In this document: positions 24,189 through 34,322 of the stretch, in pieces
Numbering within the stretch: the first letter of the stretch is position 1
Layout: each line of letters begins with the position of its first letter
NCBI GenBank assembly: GCA_903881505.1
Contig: CAIRTM010000069.1
Location: forward strand, 1-58,226
Length of the DNA: 58,226 bases
Direction: 5' to 3'
DNA from: an uncultured delta proteobacterium
GTDB lineage: Bacteria > Desulfobacterota > WTBG01 > CAIYCZ01 > CAIRTM01
The notes under the pieces: generated by a model
Seen by the model: only the letters and a program-made list of their open reading frames with translations
Database searches by the model: none
What the model was told of the DNA's origin: nothing
Translations under genes and position numbers: made by a program

Positions 24189-24803
24189 TTACTTCTTAGC
24201 CCCTGTGCAGGCCTTGATTTCAGGCAGAAATTTCAGTGCGTCTTCAACAATTTTTTCCTTTGTGCGCGGCACCTTCTTGCCGTCGACAAGATCGGCCGCC
24301 TGTACCTGGAAATATCCGGCAACCCTGCCTTTTGATGCCGCTACAAGATCTTTGTGCTTCTGCTGGTATTTTTCCTCGATAAAAGAGTCGGACGTTATAA
24401 AGATAATCACGTCCTTTCCCGCAAAACTGTTGCGCTCGATGAACGTGCGCATGGCAAGGCCGAACTGTGCCGCCCAGATCGGCGTGCTGATGATGAGGCG
24501 GTCATAGGGGGCGAAATCTACAGAGGCTGGCTCAATATCGGTCTGCATGCCCATAAAAATTTTCAGCATGCCTGTTGCCGCCCCAAACCCCTGCCTGCTG
24601 TTCAGGTCCTTGATCTCCCGAATGTCAGCACCTGTCTCCTTTTGAAGGGCCTCACATGCTGCCCTGGTATTGCCGGTCTTGGAATAATAAAGAATCAGCG
24701 TCTTTCCCGGAGCCGGCTGCCCACCGGCAATACACAAACCGCCGGACACGGCAAAACATACTGCGATAATGACTGCGACCGCTGTTTTAACTATTGCTTT
24801 CAT
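24189..24803 (-). CDS. Exported flavodoxin-like protein A
   Basis: 204 residues. An N-terminal Sec signal (VAVIIAVCFAVSGGLCIAGG) precedes a flavodoxin domain with the FMN phosphate loop YYSKTGNTRAACEAL. It is thus predicted to act outside the cytoplasmic membrane, unlike ordinary flavodoxins. It closely resembles protein B at 24829, sharing ALQKE-G-DI, the RTFI region and GRVAGYFQVQA, and the pair looks like a tandem duplication. Flavodoxin folds include HemG protoporphyrinogen oxidase, but specific HemG identity cannot be claimed. A strong AGGAGG precedes ATG 24803. Last gene of the operon. Confidence 0.85.
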   Translation of the reverse strand: MKAIVKTAVAVIIAVCFAVSGGLCIAGGQPAPGKTLILYYSKTGNTRAACEALQKETGADIREIKDLNSRQGFGAATGMLKIFMGMQTDIEPASVDFAPYDRLIISTPIWAAQFGLAMRTFIERNSFAGKDVIIFITSDSFIEEKYQQKHKDLVAASKGRVAGYFQVQAADLVDGKKVPRTKEKIVEDALKFLPEIKACTGAKK

Positions 24804-24828
24804 TCCATAGCCTCCTGCAAAAAATTCA

Positions 24829-25461
24829 TTACTGTTTCAGTACTGTTTCTATTTCACTGGCGAGTTTGACCGCGTCCTGCGCGATCAGTTCCCGGGAGCG
24901 CACCGTTTTTTCACCGTTTATTTTTTCCGTGGCCGCCACCTGAAAATAGCCGGCGACCCGGCCGCCGGATTGCACCACCATCTTCTCCGTCCTGCTCTGT
25001 GAACCCTTGTTTTCAAAGACATTGGTCGTCGTGAACATAATAACCTTCCTGCCGTCAAATCTGTGCTTTGCAATAAACGTGCGGATTGACGCGGCGGGCC
25101 TGCCCGCCCAGACAGGCGAGCCGATGACCACGGCACCGTACGGGGCAAGGTCGATATGGTCCGGGTCGATTTCGGTATGCGTATTGAACATGGAGCCAAG
25201 CGCAGCGGTGAAAAAACCCCAGCCTCCCGCCCTGCTTTTCAAATCCCTGATCTCAAGGATATCGCAGCCGAGTTCCTTCTGCAGGGCCTCGCATGCAGTT
25301 TTCGTGTTGCCGGTTCTGGAATAATAAACAATCAGTGTTTTCACAGCCGTATCCTCCAGGGCGCAGGCAGGCTGCACATACAGTGCTCCGATACAAACCA
25401 TGATAAAAACCGGGGCAACCACGCACCGCCACATTATAGACGCCGCTTTTCGCTTGTTCAT
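24829..25461 (-). CDS. Exported flavodoxin-like protein B
   Basis: 210 residues, with a signal sequence of about 34 residues (MWRCVVAPVFIMVCIGALYV, then ACALED) and then a flavodoxin domain with YYSRTGNTKTACEAL as the FMN loop. Paralogous to protein A, which follows after 25 bp. The conserved GRVAGYFQVAA and C-terminal INGEKTVRSRELIAQDAVKL region suggest the two arose by duplication. AGGAGA lies 8 nt before ATG 25461. The location in the operon suggests electron delivery to, or oxidation of, an extracytoplasmic tetrapyrrole; this is an inference. Confidence 0.85.
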   Translation of the reverse strand: MNKRKAASIMWRCVVAPVFIMVCIGALYVQPACALEDTAVKTLIVYYSRTGNTKTACEALQKELGCDILEIRDLKSRAGGWGFFTAALGSMFNTHTEIDPDHIDLAPYGAVVIGSPVWAGRPAASIRTFIAKHRFDGRKVIMFTTTNVFENKGSQSRTEKMVVQSGGRVAGYFQVAATEKINGEKTVRSRELIAQDAVKLASEIETVLKQ

Positions 25462-25492: not shown

Positions 25493-25933
25493 TTATGCTG
25501 CTCTGTGTTTTTTGGCACGCATGAGCTTCAGGACAAACTGGCCAAAGTTAATAAGGTAGACCGTGTTGGCGACAATCATCAGAACAACAGTGCCCTGCCG
25601 GCTCCAGCCGAACCAGAAAGCGGCAAGGCAGACGTGGAAGGCAATGAGCGCCGCCAGGTTGCCCACGTCCTCCCAGAAAAATTCACGGCACATAAAATAG
25701 TGCCCGTAGATTTCCTTCTCCCAGAGCATGCCGATAACGGTATTGAGCCAGAGCAGGACGATATTGAGCCAGCACGTGATCAGCGCGCCCGTATAGCCTG
25801 CGCCCGCGGCCAGAAAATACACGGCACAGCAATAGCTTGCAATGATGACCATAAGCTGCAGCATGCTGGCTGCCATCATTGCCCCGGTCAGAGGTGTTGC
25901 GTTGCGCCGGGCCATCTGTTCGGGAGTATACAT
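25493..25933 (-). CDS. BchF-like 3-vinyl (bacterio)chlorophyllide hydratase homologue
   Basis: 146-residue integral membrane protein with four predicted TM segments (about 21-43, 46-68, 92-110, 116-135). It shows the signature layout of the BchF family: YTPEQMARRNATPLT at the N-terminus, WEKEIYGHY (71-79), FFWEDVGNL (85-93), His100, and a C-terminal INFGQFVLKL. BchF adds water to the C3-vinyl of (bacterio)chlorophyllide precursors. No other chlorophyll gene except bciB is nearby, so the substrate here may be another vinyl-bearing tetrapyrrole such as heme or protoporphyrin. AAGAGG precedes ATG 25933. Recognition is from remembered family motifs, not from a search. Confidence 0.72.
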   Translation of the reverse strand: MYTPEQMARRNATPLTGAMMAASMLQLMVIIASYCCAVYFLAAGAGYTGALITCWLNIVLLWLNTVIGMLWEKEIYGHYFMCREFFWEDVGNLAALIAFHVCLAAFWFGWSRQGTVVLMIVANTVYLINFGQFVLKLMRAKKHRAA

Positions 25934-25956: not shown

Positions 25957-27180
25957 CTATGCCGGAATTTCGTAGTCTTCCAGAATTTTATAAACGTGCC
26001 GGGGTACCAGCGTACCGAGAAGACCGGGATAATTGAACTTCACATAGTGGTAATTGCGCACCAGGTGCATATCAACGGCATAGCCTGCAAACTCAAGCCC
26101 CTTGGGTCCGGTTTCATACAGCATGTCAGCAATTTCCCGGCCTTCCTTCAGGGACACATCCCTGCCCGGCTTCACCGGCGCAGCATCACGATTTGCAAGG
26201 CGCGGGATGATCTTGTTCGCGTACATGAGAATGCCGGGACGGCGGTCACCGCTGCTGAACTCAGCCGACGTTTCCAGTTCGTCCGCTATCAGGTCGCGCA
26301 GCACCCGGCCTTTTTCCGTTCTGAGGGTAACCCACTGGGGCATTTTCTCCCGGTCAAGCGGCGCGCCGATATAGCCCACGGTGATATCGGCAAGGCTGTT
26401 CATGTAGTCAAAGCAGGCCATGCAGCTCTCGGCAAACACATTGGTTCCGAACAGCTCGCGGGGAAAACTGAAAAACGGGACCTTTTCAATCGATCCGTCC
26501 GCATGGGTGATGTGGCAGGTATAATCCTGCATGTACTCAACATGGCGGGCGGTCCTGTGGGATTTACTCACCCTGCGAAGCATCCACCGGAAACGCCGCG
26601 GGTTGGCGTTGTCCGTGCAGGGGATACCGATGGTGTATATTTCCATATCGCGCAGATATGGATATGCTTCCTGAAAATTACGCAGGTTGTGAATCTGGCA
26701 GGGAGTACCGATCACGAGCAGCTTTTGTATGCCCTCCCTGCAGGCATCCTGAAGAGAGACAAGCGTCGGGGAAAGCACCGGCTTGCTGCCGCCGCCTGCC
26801 AGAATATCCTCTGATGACCGGGCAAGCACCGGCCGCGGGAAGAAGAAATCCTCTCGGCTGCGGTGCAGCGTGACGACGGCTTCTACCAGGCCGGACTCAA
26901 AGGCCTTCTGGGCCATGCGGGTGATGATGCCGGTAAACTGGGTGCGGGGAAGCGGCTTTTTAAGCCGGCCCACAAAGCGCTCACGGCTGATGCCGAAGCG
27001 TAATTCTTCGGTGTCGTCCAGAGAGCGCTCGCGCCCGAACAGGTCGCGCTCCCTGGCGCCCAGCCATCCCGTATTGAAGACGCACGACCGCATGCTTTCC
27101 TTCGCGGGCCATGCATCCGCCATGCACAGGCCGCACAGGCTGCAGAGCTTTTGTCTGAATTGCTCATACTGCATGAACAT
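25957..27180 (-). CDS. bciB: BciB-type ferredoxin-dependent 3,8-divinyl (proto)chlorophyllide 8-vinyl reductase homologue
   Basis: 407 residues of the F420-hydrogenase-beta (FrhB-like) superfamily. It keeps BciB-specific stretches: CSLCGLC near the start, DDTEELRFGIS, QFTGIITRMA, GLVEAVVTL, KPVLSPTL, LLVIGTPCQIHNLR, DGSIEKVPFFSFP and CMACFDYMNSLADITVGYIG. All expected Fe-S Cys are present (13, 16, 19, 33, 161, 188, 253, 256). Known BciB uses two [4Fe-4S] clusters and FAD to reduce the C8-vinyl to ethyl. The frame extends to a GTG at 27216; ATG 27180 or 27174 are better starts because homology begins there. Cytoplasmic; 23 bp before the BchF-like gene. Confidence 0.82.
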   Translation of the reverse strand: MFMQYEQFRQKLCSLCGLCMADAWPAKESMRSCVFNTGWLGARERDLFGRERSLDDTEELRFGISRERFVGRLKKPLPRTQFTGIITRMAQKAFESGLVEAVVTLHRSREDFFFPRPVLARSSEDILAGGGSKPVLSPTLVSLQDACREGIQKLLVIGTPCQIHNLRNFQEAYPYLRDMEIYTIGIPCTDNANPRRFRWMLRRVSKSHRTARHVEYMQDYTCHITHADGSIEKVPFFSFPRELFGTNVFAESCMACFDYMNSLADITVGYIGAPLDREKMPQWVTLRTEKGRVLRDLIADELETSAEFSSGDRRPGILMYANKIIPRLANRDAAPVKPGRDVSLKEGREIADMLYETGPKGLEFAGYAVDMHLVRNYHYVKFNYPGLLGTLVPRHVYKILEDYEIPA

Positions 27181-27237
27181 CTCTTCGCAGATGATATTCC
27201 TGGGCCGTTGTGACACTCAACACCAGCCGGGAAAATA

Positions 27238-27819
27238 CTACCGGACGGGTGTCTTTTTAAGGAAATCAGCAACCTCGGTGTCGAAGACCTCCTGCGTTTT
27301 GCCGGCCTGGAATCCGTACACGCCTTTTGCTATGAGGCCGCTTTCAGCAACGAGTTCTTCAATGCCTTTCTTCGTAAAGCCCGCCAGGGGGCCGCCGGAC
27401 GTGGTAAAAACATACACCTCCGATCCGTCGGGTATGACCTCCTCGATGAAAAACCTTCCCGGAGCGCTCAGCTGCATGAGATAGACGGGTGCAACGACAA
27501 TGATGGGGCTGTAGTCCTGTAATTTCTTCTCGAACGGCTTCTGCCTGTCATCGCCCCAGAACCACTGCTCGCCGATAATGGTAAAAATTCCCCGGCCCTT
27601 CTCCGACGGTATCTCGGCGACTTCAGCGTCAAGGTGTTTGCCCAACGCTTTTGCCACCATGCGTGCATTGCCCGTGCGGGAATAGTAGGCCACCAGAGGC
27701 TTTTTTGCGCCGGGCGCGGACTGGTCATCGCTGCCGGCAGCACTGGCGCTGCCGGCACCCGTCACAAGCACCATGAGAGCAAACATCACAACTGCGTTAC
27801 TACATGTTTTCTTCAGCAT
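27238..27819 (-). CDS. Exported flavodoxin-like protein C
   Basis: 193 residues. The signal peptide ends around SASAAGS (25-31); the flavodoxin domain has YYSRTGNARMVAKAL as FMN loop and VYVFTTSGGPLAGFTKKG as the second flavin loop. It is more distant from proteins A and B and resembles the Flavodoxin_4-type family more closely. It lies between the ferrochelatase-like and bciB genes. A good AAGGAAGG site precedes ATG 27819. Being exported, it may exchange electrons with the membrane polyferredoxin or the anchored ferrochelatase homologue (inference). Confidence 0.83.
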   Translation of the reverse strand: MLKKTCSNAVVMFALMVLVTGAGSASAAGSDDQSAPGAKKPLVAYYSRTGNARMVAKALGKHLDAEVAEIPSEKGRGIFTIIGEQWFWGDDRQKPFEKKLQDYSPIIVVAPVYLMQLSAPGRFFIEEVIPDGSEVYVFTTSGGPLAGFTKKGIEELVAESGLIAKGVYGFQAGKTQEVFDTEVADFLKKTPVR

Positions 27820-27846
27820 GTCGTTTCCTTCCTTTCTGCAACGGGG

Positions 27847-29262
27847 CTAGAACATCCCCTTTTTTTTCTTCTCCTCCACGAGAATCAGCTGCGGCCACTG
27901 CTCGCCGCGCAGGACCGTGGCCAGGGCGTCGAAAATTCCTTGCGAGATATGGGGACGATAACGGTTCCCCACGGGGCATCCGGCGCTGACGACCCGGGTC
28001 GGTCCGCTCCTGAGTTCGAGCCGGAAGGGCTTGTCAAAATCAGGATAGGGCACCTGGCCCTTATATGCAAAATGCAGGGGCTCGAGCGACTCGGTCGGAT
28101 GCGCGAAAATCGTATCAGTGTTCTCGCTGAGGAAATCGACAAGGATGAACACCACATGGTCGTAGCGGTCCTCGAGCGCCATCTCAAGCGCCTCGAATGT
28201 TGCAAGGCGCTTCTGGCCGGGATCCATGTCTCCGCCGGCGAAATCGGTGTCCGCGAAAATCACGTGCGTGTTCGTTCCGGCGAGTGCAGCTTCTATCTCT
28301 TTCTTAAGGTTGCTGTAATAGACAACGGCAAGTTCGGGATACGGGTCGCCGGGGATTTCGGGAAAGCCGTGGCGCGTCAGGATGACCAGCTTCCGGTCCT
28401 TGACGGGCAGCGGCAGGATCTCGTCTTCAGCCATCTTCACGCATGCCTTCCGGTAGGAGGCATACGCTCCCGGGAACGGCGCGTATACTATTTTTGCCCG
28501 CTCGGCAACCGCGTCCCGTATCTCCTTAAACAGGGCGTTGAACTCCTCAAGCGAGGAATAGACGTGAAAAAGGTCGATGGCCACGATGGTTTCAGCCCCG
28601 GCGTGCACCAGTTCGTCAACGGCCTCCTCGATCGTTTCCGGGTACATGGACAGTGCCCAGCGCATGGGAACGCCGGGAAACTCTTTTGCCAGCATCTGCT
28701 CGATATCCCGGAAAATCGCCCTGTGCTGGTGCATGTAGGGAATCTTGTTGCCCGGCATAATGCCGTAGTATGTTTTCAGGATTTTTATGGAGACTTTTTC
28801 AACGATATCGATGTAGCCGTTTTTATGTTCCTTCCACAGGAAATGTCCCGGCGAGTCTTCATCACGGGGGGCAACCCATTCGTAATCCAGGCTCACATAC
28901 TCCTTGCCCTCTTCATTTTTATCATTGCCGAAACAGTCTATCAGCCGCTTCGGGCCAAATTCCTCCCTGGCCAGGGGGTTGTCGGGGTCAAGCAGCACCG
29001 TGCCCTTGTCGGCCATGATGACGGGCTTTGCGATCGGCGGGAAGGCCGCATTGAATATCTGCGTCATGTAGCGGTTGAAAAAATCAAAATCATAGTGCTC
29101 GGGCTGCCCGAGCGCCACAAGCAGCACGCCCGGTTTCCCCTGCACGGTTGTGTCCTGCATAAGGAAACGCCGGTACTGCATATCGTCCTGCTTCCGTGAA
29201 AAAGCAGCGCCGAGCCCCATCAGGACAATCAACGAGCCTGTGATAACCCAGAACTTTTTCAT
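27847..29262 (-). CDS. Membrane-anchored ferrochelatase homologue with altered active site
   Basis: 471 residues. One N-terminal hydrophobic segment (4-21) should export and anchor the protein. The ferrochelatase pattern is clear: GVLLVALGQPE (45-55), PMRWALSMYPETIEEAV (199-215), and RHGFPEIPGDPYPE (297-310), containing the catalytic His298 and the GDPYP motif. In FLSENTDTI (377-385) the His-x-Glu pair of canonical enzymes (human H341, E343) is Asn381 and Asp383. An insertion of about 100 residues (75-175) is unusual. The reaction may be metal insertion, removal, or only porphyrin binding. Its start overlaps the aldehyde oxidoreductase stop (ATGA). The D. vulgaris periplasmic CbiK is a functional parallel but a different subfamily. 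Confidence 0.78.
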   Translation of the reverse strand: MKKFWVITGSLIVLMGLGAAFSRKQDDMQYRRFLMQDTTVQGKPGVLLVALGQPEHYDFDFFNRYMTQIFNAAFPPIAKPVIMADKGTVLLDPDNPLAREEFGPKRLIDCFGNDKNEEGKEYVSLDYEWVAPRDEDSPGHFLWKEHKNGYIDIVEKVSIKILKTYYGIMPGNKIPYMHQHRAIFRDIEQMLAKEFPGVPMRWALSMYPETIEEAVDELVHAGAETIVAIDLFHVYSSLEEFNALFKEIRDAVAERAKIVYAPFPGAYASYRKACVKMAEDEILPLPVKDRKLVILTRHGFPEIPGDPYPELAVVYYSNLKKEIEAALAGTNTHVIFADTDFAGGDMDPGQKRLATFEALEMALEDRYDHVVFILVDFLSENTDTIFAHPTESLEPLHFAYKGQVPYPDFDKPFRLELRSGPTRVVSAGCPVGNRYRPHISQGIFDALATVLRGEQWPQLILVEEKKKKGMF

Positions 29263-31157
29263 GCCATGCCCCCCTTTCCCGAAGAGAGGATTGTGCGCAT
29301 GTCTTCGCCGATGTCGGGCAGGTCGAGCGCATACAGCCTTTCGGGAAGCGGGATGCCCGTGGCAATGTCCCAGCCCCGCAGGCGATAGTATTCATCCTTC
29401 ATCGTTTCAAGCATGTCCCGTGTTATGACCATGCCCTTTGAGGGCCCGTCGGGTATGGGTTCGGAAAGAAACCGGTACGGCAGCGTGTCATCCGCGCGCC
29501 GCAGCCCTTCGCGCACGGCAAAGGCGCGGATCACATTCCAGATGCGCTCGGCGGTCACCCTGGCCTGCTCAAGGGTGAGGTCCATGCCGGTAACGGCATT
29601 AAAAATATCAATGCACGGCTTCTTTATTTCCGTGGGCCCCCAGATAGCTTCGGCCAGATGGCACAGGATCATTGAATCCGTGAGAATATTAAGATGGTTG
29701 ACGTTAATGATGTACTGAGGCTTGCCCTCAACAGTCTCGCGCGGCACGTATCCGGCGCGCTCACCCGTCGGCCGCCCGTCATGATGGGAGGCTCCCCGCG
29801 GCCCGGTTGCGTACCCGAGAGCGAACCCCGGAAGACCGCGGGCCGAATGCCCGGGGAAGGTCATGCCCTTGTTCTGCATGGCAAAGTCGGAAGCGTTCCC
29901 GCCGATCCTTTCGGCAGCGCGCTTGACGCCTTCGGCAAGCAGGTCGCCGATGCCCTCGCGAAGGCCGATTTTATGCACCATGGGCATGATGACCCCCTGA
30001 TTGCCGAACGACAGGTCAAGCCCGCCGGTGTCTTTCTCCGTCAGCAGGCCCTTCTCGCGGGCCTCCATGCTGAAGGCGATGGAAACGCCGGTCTCAACCG
30101 CATCCATGCCCAGATCGTCGCAGAGCCGTTCGGCCGCGGCCACAATCTCGATCGAGTCGTTTTCGACCATGGAACCCAGGGCGAAGATATTTTCATACTC
30201 CGGGCCCTCGACCTCGGAGCCCTTATAGGGCCCGTCGGACACCACGGTATACTTGCTGCAGCCGATCGGGCAGGCGAAGCATGATTTGTGGCGCACGAAT
30301 ATCTTCTCGCGCAGGGTTTCGGCGCACAGTCCCTGGGCTCCGTCGAAGGTCTCCCGCTGCCAGTTGCGGCTGCCGAAAACCCCGAGGCTGTTATTGGCAT
30401 TCACCAGCACGGGCGTTCCGAAATTGGCAAGGACCTGGCCGGTCGTCGGGTTGCTGCGCATGATGCTGATCAGCTCCTGTGTGACTCTCAGCGTGGCCTC
30501 CATGTCGTCGACCGCAAGGCTGCCGGTGCCGCGCACGGCGATGCCCTTGAATTTTTTGGACCCCAGGACCGCTCCGATCCCGCCCCGGCCGAGGGCCCGG
30601 CCCCCGACGATCACCGAGGCAAAGCGCACCATGCGCTCTCCCGCGGGGCCGATGACCGCGCTCTGCACCGCCTCATCGCCGCTGTCGATCTTGATAAGCT
30701 CATGCGTGCGGTACGTCATCTCGCCCCAGAGGTGCGCTGCGCTGCGCAGCTCGACGCCCGTGTTGCTGATAAACAGGTACACCGGCTTATCGCTCGCGCC
30801 CTCGATCACCACGCCGTCGTAGCCCGCGTATTTAAGTTCGGCGCCGAAGCAGCCGCCCGCGGACGAGTGGAAAAACCCGCCGGTCAGCGGCGATTTCGTG
30901 TACACGCCGATACGGCTGCCCGTGGGCGCGATGGTGCCGGCAAGCGGTCCGGCCAGGAATATGACCTTGTTGCGGTGCGACAGGGGGTCAATGCCGGGAT
31001 CGAGCTCATCGTAGAGCATGCGCGCGGCGAGGCCTGCGCCGCCGATGTATTTGAGCAGCTGGGCATTGGGAGTTTCCTCAACACGGATGGTCCTGCTGGT
31101 CAGGTTCACCCTGAGCAGTTTATGCGTATAGCCTTTGTATAATTTAGCGCGGCTCAT
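29259..31157 (-). CDS. Tungsten aldehyde ferredoxin oxidoreductase (AOR) family protein
   Basis: 632 residues, cytoplasmic, no signal peptide. It shows the AOR [4Fe-4S] ligands Cys293, 296, 300 (CFACPIGC) and Cys499 (SMILCHLA). It also has N-terminal tungstopterin-binding stretches (AGPLAGTIAPTGSRIGVYTKSP; GRALGRGGIGAVLGSKKFKG; shown here as separate pieces). AOR enzymes oxidise aldehydes to acids and reduce ferredoxin, or run in reverse; related BamB-type members reduce aromatic rings. The start overlaps the polyferredoxin stop by ATGA, and its stop overlaps the ferrochelatase-like start, so the three are translationally coupled. The substrate is unknown, and oxidation of a tetrapyrrole side chain is only a guess. 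Confidence 0.92.
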   Translation of the reverse strand: MSRAKLYKGYTHKLLRVNLTSRTIRVEETPNAQLLKYIGGAGLAARMLYDELDPGIDPLSHRNKVIFLAGPLAGTIAPTGSRIGVYTKSPLTGGFFHSSAGGCFGAELKYAGYDGVVIEGASDKPVYLFISNTGVELRSAAHLWGEMTYRTHELIKIDSGDEAVQSAVIGPAGERMVRFASVIVGGRALGRGGIGAVLGSKKFKGIAVRGTGSLAVDDMEATLRVTQELISIMRSNPTTGQVLANFGTPVLVNANNSLGVFGSRNWQRETFDGAQGLCAETLREKIFVRHKSCFACPIGCSKYTVVSDGPYKGSEVEGPEYENIFALGSMVENDSIEIVAAAERLCDDLGMDAVETGVSIAFSMEAREKGLLTEKDTGGLDLSFGNQGVIMPMVHKIGLREGIGDLLAEGVKRAAERIGGNASDFAMQNKGMTFPGHSARGLPGFALGYATGPRGASHHDGRPTGERAGYVPRETVEGKPQYIINVNHLNILTDSMILCHLAEAIWGPTEIKKPCIDIFNAVTGMDLTLEQARVTAERIWNVIRAFAVREGLRRADDTLPYRFLSEPIPDGPSKGMVITRDMLETMKDEYYRLRGWDIATGIPLPERLYALDLPDIGEDMRTILSSGKGGMA

Positions 31158-32746
31158 GCTGCTTCTCCTTTTTTCGCACCGTTCTGCCGGGCCGCGTTGA
31201 TATCACAGGCCGGACACCCCGAGGGATACGCTCCGCAGGGTGTCGGACACGGCGGGGGCGTTTTGGAAAACGGGTTCAGCTTCGCAAACAATTTTTTTAT
31301 GGCGCCGGGCCGCTTCGGCTCCAGCCCCTTTCTGGCGCCGTCCTTGTCCCAGATGATGACCCGGGCGGGGCACACCTTGAGGCAGCGCGGGTCACCGCCG
31401 CAGGCATCGCAGGTGTTTTTCAATTTCGGCACGGGTATCTCCGGGGTGCCTTCCATCTCGATCTGTATGTTCGAGCGGGAGGGGTCGAACACGCCGAGCC
31501 TGCCGCCCGAGCAGGCGAGCTCGCACAGCCGGCAGCCGATGCAGCGCTCGGGAATGACATTGATCCGCCGTATCTTCTTCTGGAAAACGCCGTGGGGGCA
31601 GGTGTCGCGGCATTCGTAGCACAGGTTGCAGTTTACCGGCACCTCGCCGATCGCACGGATTGAAAGTTCCGCCTCTCCTTCAGGAACGGACTGGAACTGG
31701 AAGCCCATGACGCAGCGCTTTTCGGGCTCGCAGTCAGGGCAGACCCTGCAGCGGTCGGTCTTGAAGGGCACGCGGTACAGGGCCGGCTGGCCCAGGGTCA
31801 CCCGGTACCCGATGTACCAGCAGAAATAGCGGCAGTAGATGCGGTAGGCGAACAGCAGCGATCCCAGGAACATGCCGTTGGTCAGCACCTTGGTCCAGAC
31901 CATGGGCTTCCACAGTGAAGTCCAGTCCGGGTCGCGCATCATCTCCGCGGACGAGGCCAGCTGAAACACCCGTTCAAAGGTATATATCACGATGATCATG
32001 ACAACCATGGTGACCGGCACGTAAATCCTGTTGATCTGCGACTTGAATTTGTCGGTAAGCTTGATGCCCGTGAAACTATAAAACCGCATGATGGAGTCCT
32101 GCAGCGTGCCCACCGGGCACATCCAGCCGCAAAACCAGCGGCCGATGAAAAAAGGAAGTACGAGCGAGCCGAGCAGCATGGCCAGAAACCAGAAAAAAAG
32201 CTCGGGGTTTGTTACGGGCCGGGCCGTCATGCCCGTGGCGAAGAGCACGAGGTACCAGCCGAACATGATGCTCTGGCACCAGATCCGCCATTTCTTGGTC
32301 TTAACCGTTTTGCGGGCCCGGGCTTCGGCGTCCGGCGGCGTGCGCAGCAGGCGCACGGCGATGTAGGTTATGTACAGGACCACCGGCAGGGCCAGCAGGA
32401 CCCCCAGGCCGGGAAACAGCTCAAAACCCTTGCCGCCGAACTGCCAGGCGATAATGTCGTTGGTGTCGATCTTCCAGCGCTCCTGATCGCCGGGGAACTG
32501 AAAGGGGAAAAAATTGGAAAATCCCTGGATGGAAAGATATACCCAGAAACGCCCCGAACCTTTGGGCCGCCCGTAGAAATAGTCGGCAAACTGCAGGGTA
32601 AACGCGCCGATGGCGATCATCACGCACAGCCAGTTGGGCACGTAGCCCGCTACGATCCCCAGCACGTACAGGATAAGACCGAGGGAGGACATGTTGCGCA
32701 CGTGGCGCACGAACTCATCGCGGCTTGAAAAGGCTCCCCATGCCAT
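31154..32746 (-). CDS. NapH/NosR-like membrane polyferredoxin
   Basis: 530 residues with about six to seven TM segments in the first 310 residues. It has the NapH-type cluster motif FCGWMCPVGTLQD (Cys206, 210) and a variant second motif CRYFCW (305-310) lacking the usual Pro. The C-terminal half has three ferredoxin-type Cys groups: 373/376/379/383, 402/405/408/412 and 446/449/455/459, plus CRVCPDC (333-339). A Cys-rich tail (CPTPCGAYPSGCPACD) ends the protein. It should carry electrons between membrane quinol or exported redox partners and cytoplasmic ferredoxin-type proteins. It is coupled to the AOR gene by ATGA and lies 1 bp from the upstream membrane-protein gene. Confidence 0.88.
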   Translation of the reverse strand: MAWGAFSSRDEFVRHVRNMSSLGLILYVLGIVAGYVPNWLCVMIAIGAFTLQFADYFYGRPKGSGRFWVYLSIQGFSNFFPFQFPGDQERWKIDTNDIIAWQFGGKGFELFPGLGVLLALPVVLYITYIAVRLLRTPPDAEARARKTVKTKKWRIWCQSIMFGWYLVLFATGMTARPVTNPELFFWFLAMLLGSLVLPFFIGRWFCGWMCPVGTLQDSIMRFYSFTGIKLTDKFKSQINRIYVPVTMVVMIIVIYTFERVFQLASSAEMMRDPDWTSLWKPMVWTKVLTNGMFLGSLLFAYRIYCRYFCWYIGYRVTLGQPALYRVPFKTDRCRVCPDCEPEKRCVMGFQFQSVPEGEAELSIRAIGEVPVNCNLCYECRDTCPHGVFQKKIRRINVIPERCIGCRLCELACSGGRLGVFDPSRSNIQIEMEGTPEIPVPKLKNTCDACGGDPRCLKVCPARVIIWDKDGARKGLEPKRPGAIKKLFAKLNPFSKTPPPCPTPCGAYPSGCPACDINAARQNGAKKGEAA

Positions 32747-32747
32747 G

Positions 32748-33527
32748 TCAGTGCCCTCCCAGGATATAGGGCGCGCGGGTCAGAATAAAATGAAATTCCT
32801 CCGCGGACATGCCGAACCCCATGCGCAGGTAGATGAGCAGCACCGCAAAATTCACCATCTGCAGCTTGAACCACTTCTCACGGGGCACGCCGTTGCGCCG
32901 GAACAGCCGGGCCGCGCACAGGAAGTAGAGGGTAAACCAGGTGTACATGAAGACAATTGATCCGATCCACCAGCCGCGCGCGCTGTCGGGATTGTTGGCC
33001 CTCACCGTGCCGTAGGAGGCAAGCAGGTACGCGTTCTGCTCGGTGATCTCCGTGCCCTTCTCAAAGCCGCCGTAGTCCTGCGCGAGATGCTTGCCCACGA
33101 GCTCATCGGGCGCCTTCTGCTCGATGCGCAGTTCCATGCCGATGTTTTCGCAGAAGAAATCCGACATGAAACCCGTCAGCAGGGCTATCAGGATAAAGCA
33201 CAGCGACCCGATGCGGGCCGCCTTGGCATAGGCCCAGTCATGCAGCACCCACTTATACAAAAGGCCTATAAAAAGCGCGTACAGCACGCCGACGGCCGCG
33301 CCCGAAATCACCCCCAGGAACCGGCCGGTATAGTAGTATTCCTTGCCCGGCAGGTCGCGAAAAAAGCCGGCCAGCCGGATAAAGGCCCCCGGGTACATGA
33401 ACGTGTCAAGCACCCGGTACTTGGCATCCGATGTGCCGAAGGTCTTGCCGAAGAAATACCCGGGGATAATCAGCTCCCACCAGACCGAGCTGCGTGTCCA
33501 GAAATCAAGTCCCTTCATGGTTTTCAT
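32748..33527 (-). CDS. Four-TM membrane protein of unknown family
   Basis: 259 residues, not recognised. Predicted TM segments are about 71-91, 105-124, 187-208 and 222-241, with a 60-residue charged loop (125-185) between the second and third. His and aromatic residues near the membrane edges (HDWAY; WWIGS) could bind heme or quinone, but no motif proves it. The frame is open upstream to 33704; ATG 33527 is chosen because of a GGGGGAG site. It is separated from the polyferredoxin gene by one base, suggesting a partner subunit of that membrane complex. Confidence 0.75.
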   Translation of the reverse strand: MKTMKGLDFWTRSSVWWELIIPGYFFGKTFGTSDAKYRVLDTFMYPGAFIRLAGFFRDLPGKEYYYTGRFLGVISGAAVGVLYALFIGLLYKWVLHDWAYAKAARIGSLCFILIALLTGFMSDFFCENIGMELRIEQKAPDELVGKHLAQDYGGFEKGTEITEQNAYLLASYGTVRANNPDSARGWWIGSIVFMYTWFTLYFLCAARLFRRNGVPREKWFKLQMVNFAVLLIYLRMGFGMSAEEFHFILTRAPYILGGH

Positions 33528-33570: not shown

Positions 33571-34053
33571 TTATTGCACTGCCATGCCGGCAGTCTTATC
33601 AGCCACCGCTTTTTCAAGGATAATCGCCGCAGCCTCGACCGTTGCGAGCAGCAGTTTTTTTTCTGAATGATCGATACCTGCCAGAATTTCGCCGATAATT
33701 TCAAACTGCTCGCCGCGAAACGCCTTGAAACCCGCGCGCCCCCTGGCGGTCAGGCGGATATCGGACATGCGCTTGTCGCTCCGGTTTTTCGAGCGCGCCA
33801 CGTGCCCCATAACCTCAAGCCGGTGCACCAGGTTGTTGACGCTTTGCAGCGACATGCCGAGCACGCGGCTTATTTCCGAGATGTGGACAACGTCCCGCTC
33901 GTTGAAAAAAGAAAGAATCCGCATCTGGGCCACGGACAGCGTGGGGCTTTTCGCTTTCAGGCTTCTGCCGAAGCTCAGGCAGCGGAACATTTTCTGAAAG
34001 TTCACAAACAGTGTTTCGGTCATGTCGGAATGAAACGTCGTATCTGTTTTCAC
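33571..34053 (-). CDS. MarR-family transcriptional regulator
   Basis: 160 residues. Winged helix-turn-helix: the recognition region is ISEISRVLGMSLQSVNNLVHRLE, here split as ISEISRVLGMSLQS and VNNLVHRLEVMG, followed by the wing KNRSDKRMSDIRLTARGR. Flanking helices fit MarR dimerisation. GTG 34053 is the likely start (GGGAGG 7 nt upstream); upstream in-frame ATGs lie inside the promoter. It is the first gene of a ten-gene minus-strand array and probably regulates itself and the tetrapyrrole-related genes. The ligand is unknown; a porphyrin or heme effector would fit the operon. Confidence 0.88.
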   Translation of the reverse strand: MKTDTTFHSDMTETLFVNFQKMFRCLSFGRSLKAKSPTLSVAQMRILSFFNERDVVHISEISRVLGMSLQSVNNLVHRLEVMGHVARSKNRSDKRMSDIRLTARGRAGFKAFRGEQFEIIGEILAGIDHSEKKLLLATVEAAAIILEKAVADKTAGMAVQ

Positions 34054-34088
34054 GGGCGCCCTCCCGGAGTTTGTATTTACTATACATA

Positions 34089-34116
34089 TATATACTATTA
34101 TCCCCCTGCTTGTCAA
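34089..34116 (-). promoter_or_regulatory. Promoter of the marR-led operon
   Basis: On the minus strand, perfect TTGACA (34116-34111) with TATATA at a 16-bp spacing (34094-34089); another TATATA lies at 18 bp. The position is about 35 bp upstream of the GTG start. Confidence 0.75.
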
Positions 34117-34149
34117 CATGTTTGCCATTATTATTAAAGATAATACTAT
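34092..34149. promoter_or_regulatory. Inverted repeat flanking the marR promoter, candidate operator
   Basis: ATACTATTATC (34092-34102) and GATAATACTAT (34139-34149) are inverted copies with 10 of 11 matches, 36 bp apart. They surround the -35 element and overlap the -10 region. Such placement suits autoregulation by the MarR protein. The pairing was found by eye. Confidence 0.5.
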
Positions 34150-34322
34150 AGCCAGCGGCATATTTTATACATAAACGTTTATTAAACTGTACGGCACAGC
34201 GGGGGCGACAGCTGCGGTTCGAAACGGGGGGTATGCGCAGGCGGAACCCGCGCGGATCGAAACGGTCAATGCAGGAACAGCGGCCAGGCCGTCTTCCGCG
34301 AGGATGCGGAACGGCGACTGTC

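Follow-up and report, generated by a model that had tools for sequence, protein, structure and literature searches.

What does a probably exported ferrochelatase-like protein do when two residues of its active site have been exchanged? The question is raised by one gene of the window, by which we mean the whole stretch of 58,226 nucleotides analysed here, from an uncultured delta proteobacterium. The likely answer is that tetrapyrroles are handled outside the cytoplasm of a probably anaerobic, non-phototrophic bacterium. More specifically, we give a probability of about 45% to the reading that the gene encodes a class II chelatase-fold protein which most likely removes or guards the metal of an imported pigment, within a lineage-specific anaerobic tetrapyrrole system. 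The computed support consists of the fold, a family-wide residue pattern, a conserved operon and the co-distribution with bilin-reductase-like genes.

Fold, active site and location of the ferrochelatase-like protein

The gene originally predicted at 27847-29262 is present there on the minus strand as an ORF of 471 aa with an ATG start; a long plus-strand ORF at 27634-29199 was rejected as a shadow ORF. The product matches the Pfam family Ferrochelatase (PF00762) with 40.4 bits, above the cut-off of 27, and its score against the NCBI ferrochelatase equivalog TIGR00109 (35.3 bits vs. a cut-off of 124.6) indicates a distant relative rather than a standard HemH. When the solved structures were searched by sequence with the protein or its alignment, nothing relevant matched, so that the fold assignment comes from profiles and a structure model. 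The AlphaFold2 model, built from 12 group A sequences, is of moderate confidence (pLDDT 71.8). Foldseek with this model placed ferrochelatases in the top rows, and a structural aligner gave Z 19.2 for Listeria CpfC (LmCpfC) and 18.4 for human ferrochelatase vs. 13.7 for the periplasmic CbiK (2xvz) and 13.3 for the P. gingivalis FetB (9b86). The ferrochelatase homology proposed earlier is thus upheld by superposition of the predicted structure. Residues 42-455 of the model cover CpfC residues 3-311. The excess of about 100 residues noted earlier is correct as a total and not as a single insertion: about 60 extra residues are found from the first strand up to residue 161, and the remainder is dispersed.

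As predicted, the protein has kept the catalytic His (H298, equivalent to human H263) and the GDPYP motif (305-309). Two profile-profile alignments, one including two canonical HemH proteins of the same class alongside E. coli HemH and the other with E. coli HemH alone, agree in placing S379-E-N-T-D-T384 on A-D-C-L-E-T of the E. coli enzyme. N381 is thereby matched to human H341 and D383 to human E343, just as the original prediction had it. Canonical HemH proteins from sister-family genomes read A-D-H-L-E-T (L155) or A-D-H-L-E-V at the aligned site. Both substitutions in the His-Glu pair therefore stand, while the idea that H341 is a universal ferrochelatase residue does not, as E. coli has Cys there. 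Because this site varies among true ferrochelatases, the exchange of Glu for Asp is the stronger change.

None of H298, E380, N381 and D383 varies in the 35 non-redundant relatives; position 382 holds S or T (giving E-N-S/T-D at 380-383), position 384 holds T or S, and the HGxP motif is retained; the Glu of the human E343 site is absent, with Asp instead, from every one of them. Comparison with the nearest orthologue gives a dN/dS ratio of about 0.08 (pS 0.57, pN 0.08). Taken together, these data show an active site under selection and exclude an origin of the altered site by chance or in a pseudogene. Judged from the aligned relatives, the N/D substitution is a signature of the family and not a one-off. 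The protein resembles a class II chelatase in its fold and catalytic His, but the defining Glu, the equivalog score and the location set it apart from ferrochelatase. In the human enzyme, E343D, the single change nearest to D383, impairs a step after chelation, while E343K is inactive and co-purifies with protoporphyrin still bound (PMC9133952). The behaviour of E343D means that the changed residues need not imply a loss of chelation, and the difference between the two mutants makes the direction of the effect of the altered site uncertain.

The N-terminal anchor that had been claimed is confirmed: every relative whose 5′ end is intact has a hydrophobic segment there. Five group A orthologues have a lipobox-like Cys motif at the end of the segment and then KQD or PQD, the same sequence as after the anchor of the window protein. 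Export of the chelatase-like protein is well supported as a predicted location. The earlier pairing of export with a changed site is supported, and the changed residues define a family. An exported chelatase fold is not without precedent, given CbiK of Desulfovibrio and IhtB/FetB.

Comparison with these systems sets the protein apart from each of them. It shares with HemH/CpfC (PF00762) the fold (Z 18-19), the catalytic His in HG-x-P and the domain order, and differs in having N-D for H/C-x-E, a membrane anchor and the extra residues. CbiK(P), the periplasmic cobaltochelatase of Desulfovibrio vulgaris, is likewise an extracytoplasmic class II chelatase fold, but it has about 260 residues and other metal-site residues, and its gene context is different as well. 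IhtB/FetB of Porphyromonas gingivalis has the chelatase fold and is exported, as predicted for the window protein, but is nearer to CbiK in size and homology; its gene lies in the context of a TonB receptor and an ABC transporter, neither of which is found in the ten-gene operon described below, where the neighbours are AOR, HCAR-like and BchF-like genes. Described as a putative heme-binding lipoprotein, IhtB/FetB has been suggested to strip heme of its iron outside the cytoplasm (PMC10913741). A chelatase homologue that takes the iron out of heme anaerobically is known in HmuS (PMC12583661), but this de-chelatase belongs to another family (class I, CobN/ChlH) and serves as a precedent for the reaction only. 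A literature search, mostly covering papers available without subscription, returned no description of the chelatase subfamily or of the gene combination.

The ten-gene operon

The ferrochelatase-like gene belongs to a run of ten minus-strand genes extending from 34161 to 24189 with a spacing of -4 to 43 bp. The first gene encodes a MarR-family regulator (33571..34161; Pfam MarR_2, 40.5 bits) and is followed, after the 43-bp gap, by a gene for a 259-aa hydrophobic, probably membrane protein (32748..33527), which is conserved in the operon, has no Pfam family and gave a structure model too poor for use (pLDDT 46). Next come a NapH-like integral membrane iron-sulfur protein of 530 aa (31154..32746; Fer4_5, 41.6 bits; NapH family, 31.6 bits, below the cut-off) and a 632-aa member of the aldehyde ferredoxin oxidoreductase (AOR) family (29259..31157; AFOR_C, 410.7 bits; 1aor, 457.6 bits), whose gene overlaps the ferrochelatase-like gene by 4 bp. 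The gaps in the flavodoxin-side half of the operon are 21-31 bp throughout.

This half contains two genes that point to pigment chemistry. The first (25957..27216) encodes an FrhB-family protein (Pfam, 84.7 bits) that is a close homologue of 7-hydroxymethyl-chlorophyll reductase (HCAR): it matches 5dqr with 254 bits over 24-415, nearly the full length, vs. 60.6 bits to FrhB. BciB 8-vinyl reductases are orthologues of 7-hydroxymethyl chlorophyll a reductase (PMC4836224). The second (25493..25933) encodes a hydrophobic 146-aa homologue of BchF, the 3-vinyl bacteriochlorophyllide hydratase family (PF07284, 103.1 bits with a cut-off of 25). Its score against TIGR02020, 89.2 bits, is slightly under the cut-off of 101.35, which is exceeded by the BchF copy of a relative (128.3 bits) that adjoins another AOR and a MarR-like gene.

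The remaining genes encode flavodoxin-like proteins with signal peptides, of 193 aa (27238..27819), 210 aa (24829..25461; Flavodoxin_5, 45.9 bits) and, as the last gene of the operon, 204 aa (24189..24803; Flavodoxin_4, 37.4 bits). Exported flavodoxins are unusual, and here three with signal-peptide-like starts are found in one operon (24189-25461 and 27238-27819, minus strand).

The operon core (MarR, the membrane protein, the NapH-like protein, AOR, the ferrochelatase-like gene and flavodoxins) was found again in other genera, and BchF lies within the ferrochelatase-like operon only in the genome of the window. No heme-synthesis genes lie beside the ferrochelatase-like gene in the window. 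The strongest evidence, which did not figure in the original prediction, is this conserved operon together with genomes that are rich in chlorophyll- and bilin-type enzymes and in which no type II reaction centre was found.

Distribution of the family and pigment-type genes of its carriers

Among the 395 genomes scanned across the phylum, 13, all from a single class, carry the ferrochelatase-like family (groups A and B). It occurs in 9/9 searched genomes of the family of the window, with up to six matches each. A scan of named genomes gave 11 loci, all in MAGs titled Deltaproteobacteria, Thermodesulfobacteriota, Proteobacteria or plain bacterium; it used group A peptide patterns, which would miss group B, and so does not show absence elsewhere. 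Judging by titles, a deep lake cast and sediment of Lac Pavin each contributed one of the related named MAGs. Plasmids yielded no homologue. Among the carriers no HemH-like match reached canonical strength, in contrast to two of three genomes of a sister family lacking the altered protein, which have one each (281 and 272 bits).

Ferredoxin-dependent bilin reductase genes (PF05996) were found in 12 of the 395 genomes, and all 12 are among the 13 carriers, the exception being G005. Fisher's test for the co-distribution gives 5e-22, a value that overstates independence because the lineages are related. The genome of the window has 10 PF05996 matches and the relatives in its family have 7 to 17, apart from one with none; one such protein scores 78 bits against solved bilin reductases. 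Group B paralogues directly abut PF05996 genes in G000:C136 and G003:C9. Linkage within about 6.5 kb is confined to a few of 21 loci, which places more weight on the co-distribution, itself phylogenetically non-independent. Bilin reductases in heterotrophs are already known (PMC10151467). As side observations, the ten PF05996 loci of G000 (3.16 Mb; e.g., L092:8242-8919, L093:7488-8276 and L029:11001-11963) include proteins fused to ferredoxin-type Fe-S domains and one with an N-terminal hydrophobic segment, and the group B genes of G002 are clustered with MMPL, DUF1302, DUF1329, YCF48-like and alpha/beta hydrolase genes.

Chlorophyll-type genes are also present. BchF exceeds the cut-off in 4/395 genomes of the phylum, all in the family of the window, and CobN/BchH-type genes occur in 9/9 genomes of that family. 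The BchH of G006 scores 1038 bits vs. an equivalog cut-off of 829 and has I/D-type genes alongside, just past the operon; that of the window genome, 814 bits with a truncated query, is slightly under. Beside BchH and the I/D-type subunits in G006 we noted a small transporter gene with a weak match to nickel/cobalt efflux permeases (L110:1120-1854) and a MarR gene that matches BilQ weakly (L110:1902-9156). Contig C135 of the window genome (L182:920-9491) carries in one run genes for AOR, a WrbA-like flavin reductase, MarR, two adjacent NifH-like proteins, a NifD/E-like and a BchB-like subunit. The latter has 3aet as its best PDB match, and its 153.9 bits to BchB are far under the cut-off of 490; the run looks like a divergent nitrogenase-type complex with a large subunit that resembles protochlorophyllide reductase more than nitrogenase.

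Phototrophy was rejected on present evidence: the type II reaction centre (PF00124) was found in 0/17 genomes of the class, and no BchL or BchM equivalog scored above the cut-off in these incomplete MAGs. Stray chlorophyll-synthesis genes in non-phototrophs are known from Binatota, which lack bchF and bciB (PMC8262859).

Possible function

Under the main reading, the window protein would sit on the outer face of the inner membrane, lipid-anchored in some orthologues, as part of a lineage-specific, anaerobic and largely reductive processing of tetrapyrroles. It would bind a ring of the porphyrin or chlorin type coming from outside; His298, together with Asp383 and Asn381, would pass protons to the ring nitrogens, whereby the metal (Fe2+ or Mg2+) would be released and kept out. 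The ring could then be modified by the HCAR/BciB-like reductase, the BchF-like hydratase and the exported flavodoxins, with AOR and the membrane Fe-S electron path also taking part. Both the substrate and the direction of the reaction are what we infer here. Tetrapyrrole binding is probable; net metal removal in vivo is more tentative, its chances being somewhat short of even. We prefer metal removal because the protein faces outward, has retained the catalytic His and a carboxylate, and has neighbours that look like enzymes modifying rings or side chains. Several points weigh against the main reading: the co-distribution, confined to one class, may reflect shared ancestry rather than function; one carrier has no PF05996 match; BchF is part of the operon in the window genome only; the score against the ferrochelatase equivalog is low and the structure model of moderate confidence; and some operon proteins may have nothing to do with tetrapyrroles, given that AOR and flavodoxins serve many purposes.

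The main alternative is a pure carrier or receptor, in which fold and pocket would still serve to bind and pass on the tetrapyrrole, much as in hemophores, with the H-x-E network required for catalysis gone. Both residues at the 343/341 sites are indeed replaced, human E343K is inactive and yet retains protoporphyrin (PMC9133952), and the exported chelatase fold of IhtB/FetB is a putative heme-binding lipoprotein (PMC10913741). A mere carrier, however, has no need of a catalytic His, and H298, Glu380, Asp383 and HGxP persist in 35/35 relatives, Asp preserving the carboxylate; we regard this role as rather unlikely. We see lower chances for a chelatase working in the direction of insertion, e.g., of Fe, Co, Ni or Mg into a novel tetrapyrrole cofactor made by the lineage. 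The retained fold and catalytic His would suit it, as would the post-chelation defect of human E343D (PMC9133952) and the canonical-strength HemH seen in two of three sister-family genomes and not in carriers, but the product of an enzyme outside the membrane would be lost, and several paralogues in some genomes exceed what a single cofactor step requires.

Least probable, and quite improbable in our view, is recruitment of the fold away from tetrapyrroles, for metal storage or for redox-partner assembly of the AOR and NapH-like complex. The 4-bp overlap with the AOR gene, the further AOR gene beside another ferrochelatase-like gene of the same genome (G000:C25) and the generic redox nature of several operon proteins speak for it, but the HCAR-like and BchF-like genes of the operon and the bilin-reductase-like genes beside group B paralogues point to tetrapyrroles.

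Chlorophyll and heme are abundant pigments that arrive in anoxic water and sediment, and the known ring-opening and demetallating enzymes are mostly oxygen-dependent or come from few anaerobes, HmuS being one exception. The bacterium of the window, apparently anaerobic and non-photosynthetic, may with its relatives process pigment rings by an undescribed route. A bolder proposal, which we hold possible but doubtful, is that this class-level lineage of non-phototrophic anaerobes has an oxygen-independent pathway to degrade or remodel heme, chlorophyll or pheophorbide. It would comprise the exported N/D-type dechelatase, AOR-family tungsten enzymes, side-chain enzymes resembling HCAR/BciB and BchF, a nitrogenase-type reductase similar to BchB and the expanded bilin-reductase-like set. 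An altered chelatase family in a pigment-chemistry operon of likely anaerobes supplies named, expressible candidates for an anaerobic pigment step, and the family-wide N/D change is a natural test of the role of the H-x-E pair in chelatases.

Further chelatase-like proteins were noted, one of them in the genome of the window itself. This protein, of G000:C25 (L002:1471-2748, L028), has 425 aa, a PF00762 score of 30 bits and several N-terminal hydrophobic segments. Open frames of 612-619 aa (L025:1501-2325, L027:1501-2319, L141) carry a distant chelatase-family copy after an N-terminal extension. Another PF00762 group of 320-350 aa (L157, L169, L179 and L158; G297 and G257) has HGEPE and HGEPD motifs, with four members in G297 alone and a signal-peptide-like start in L179.
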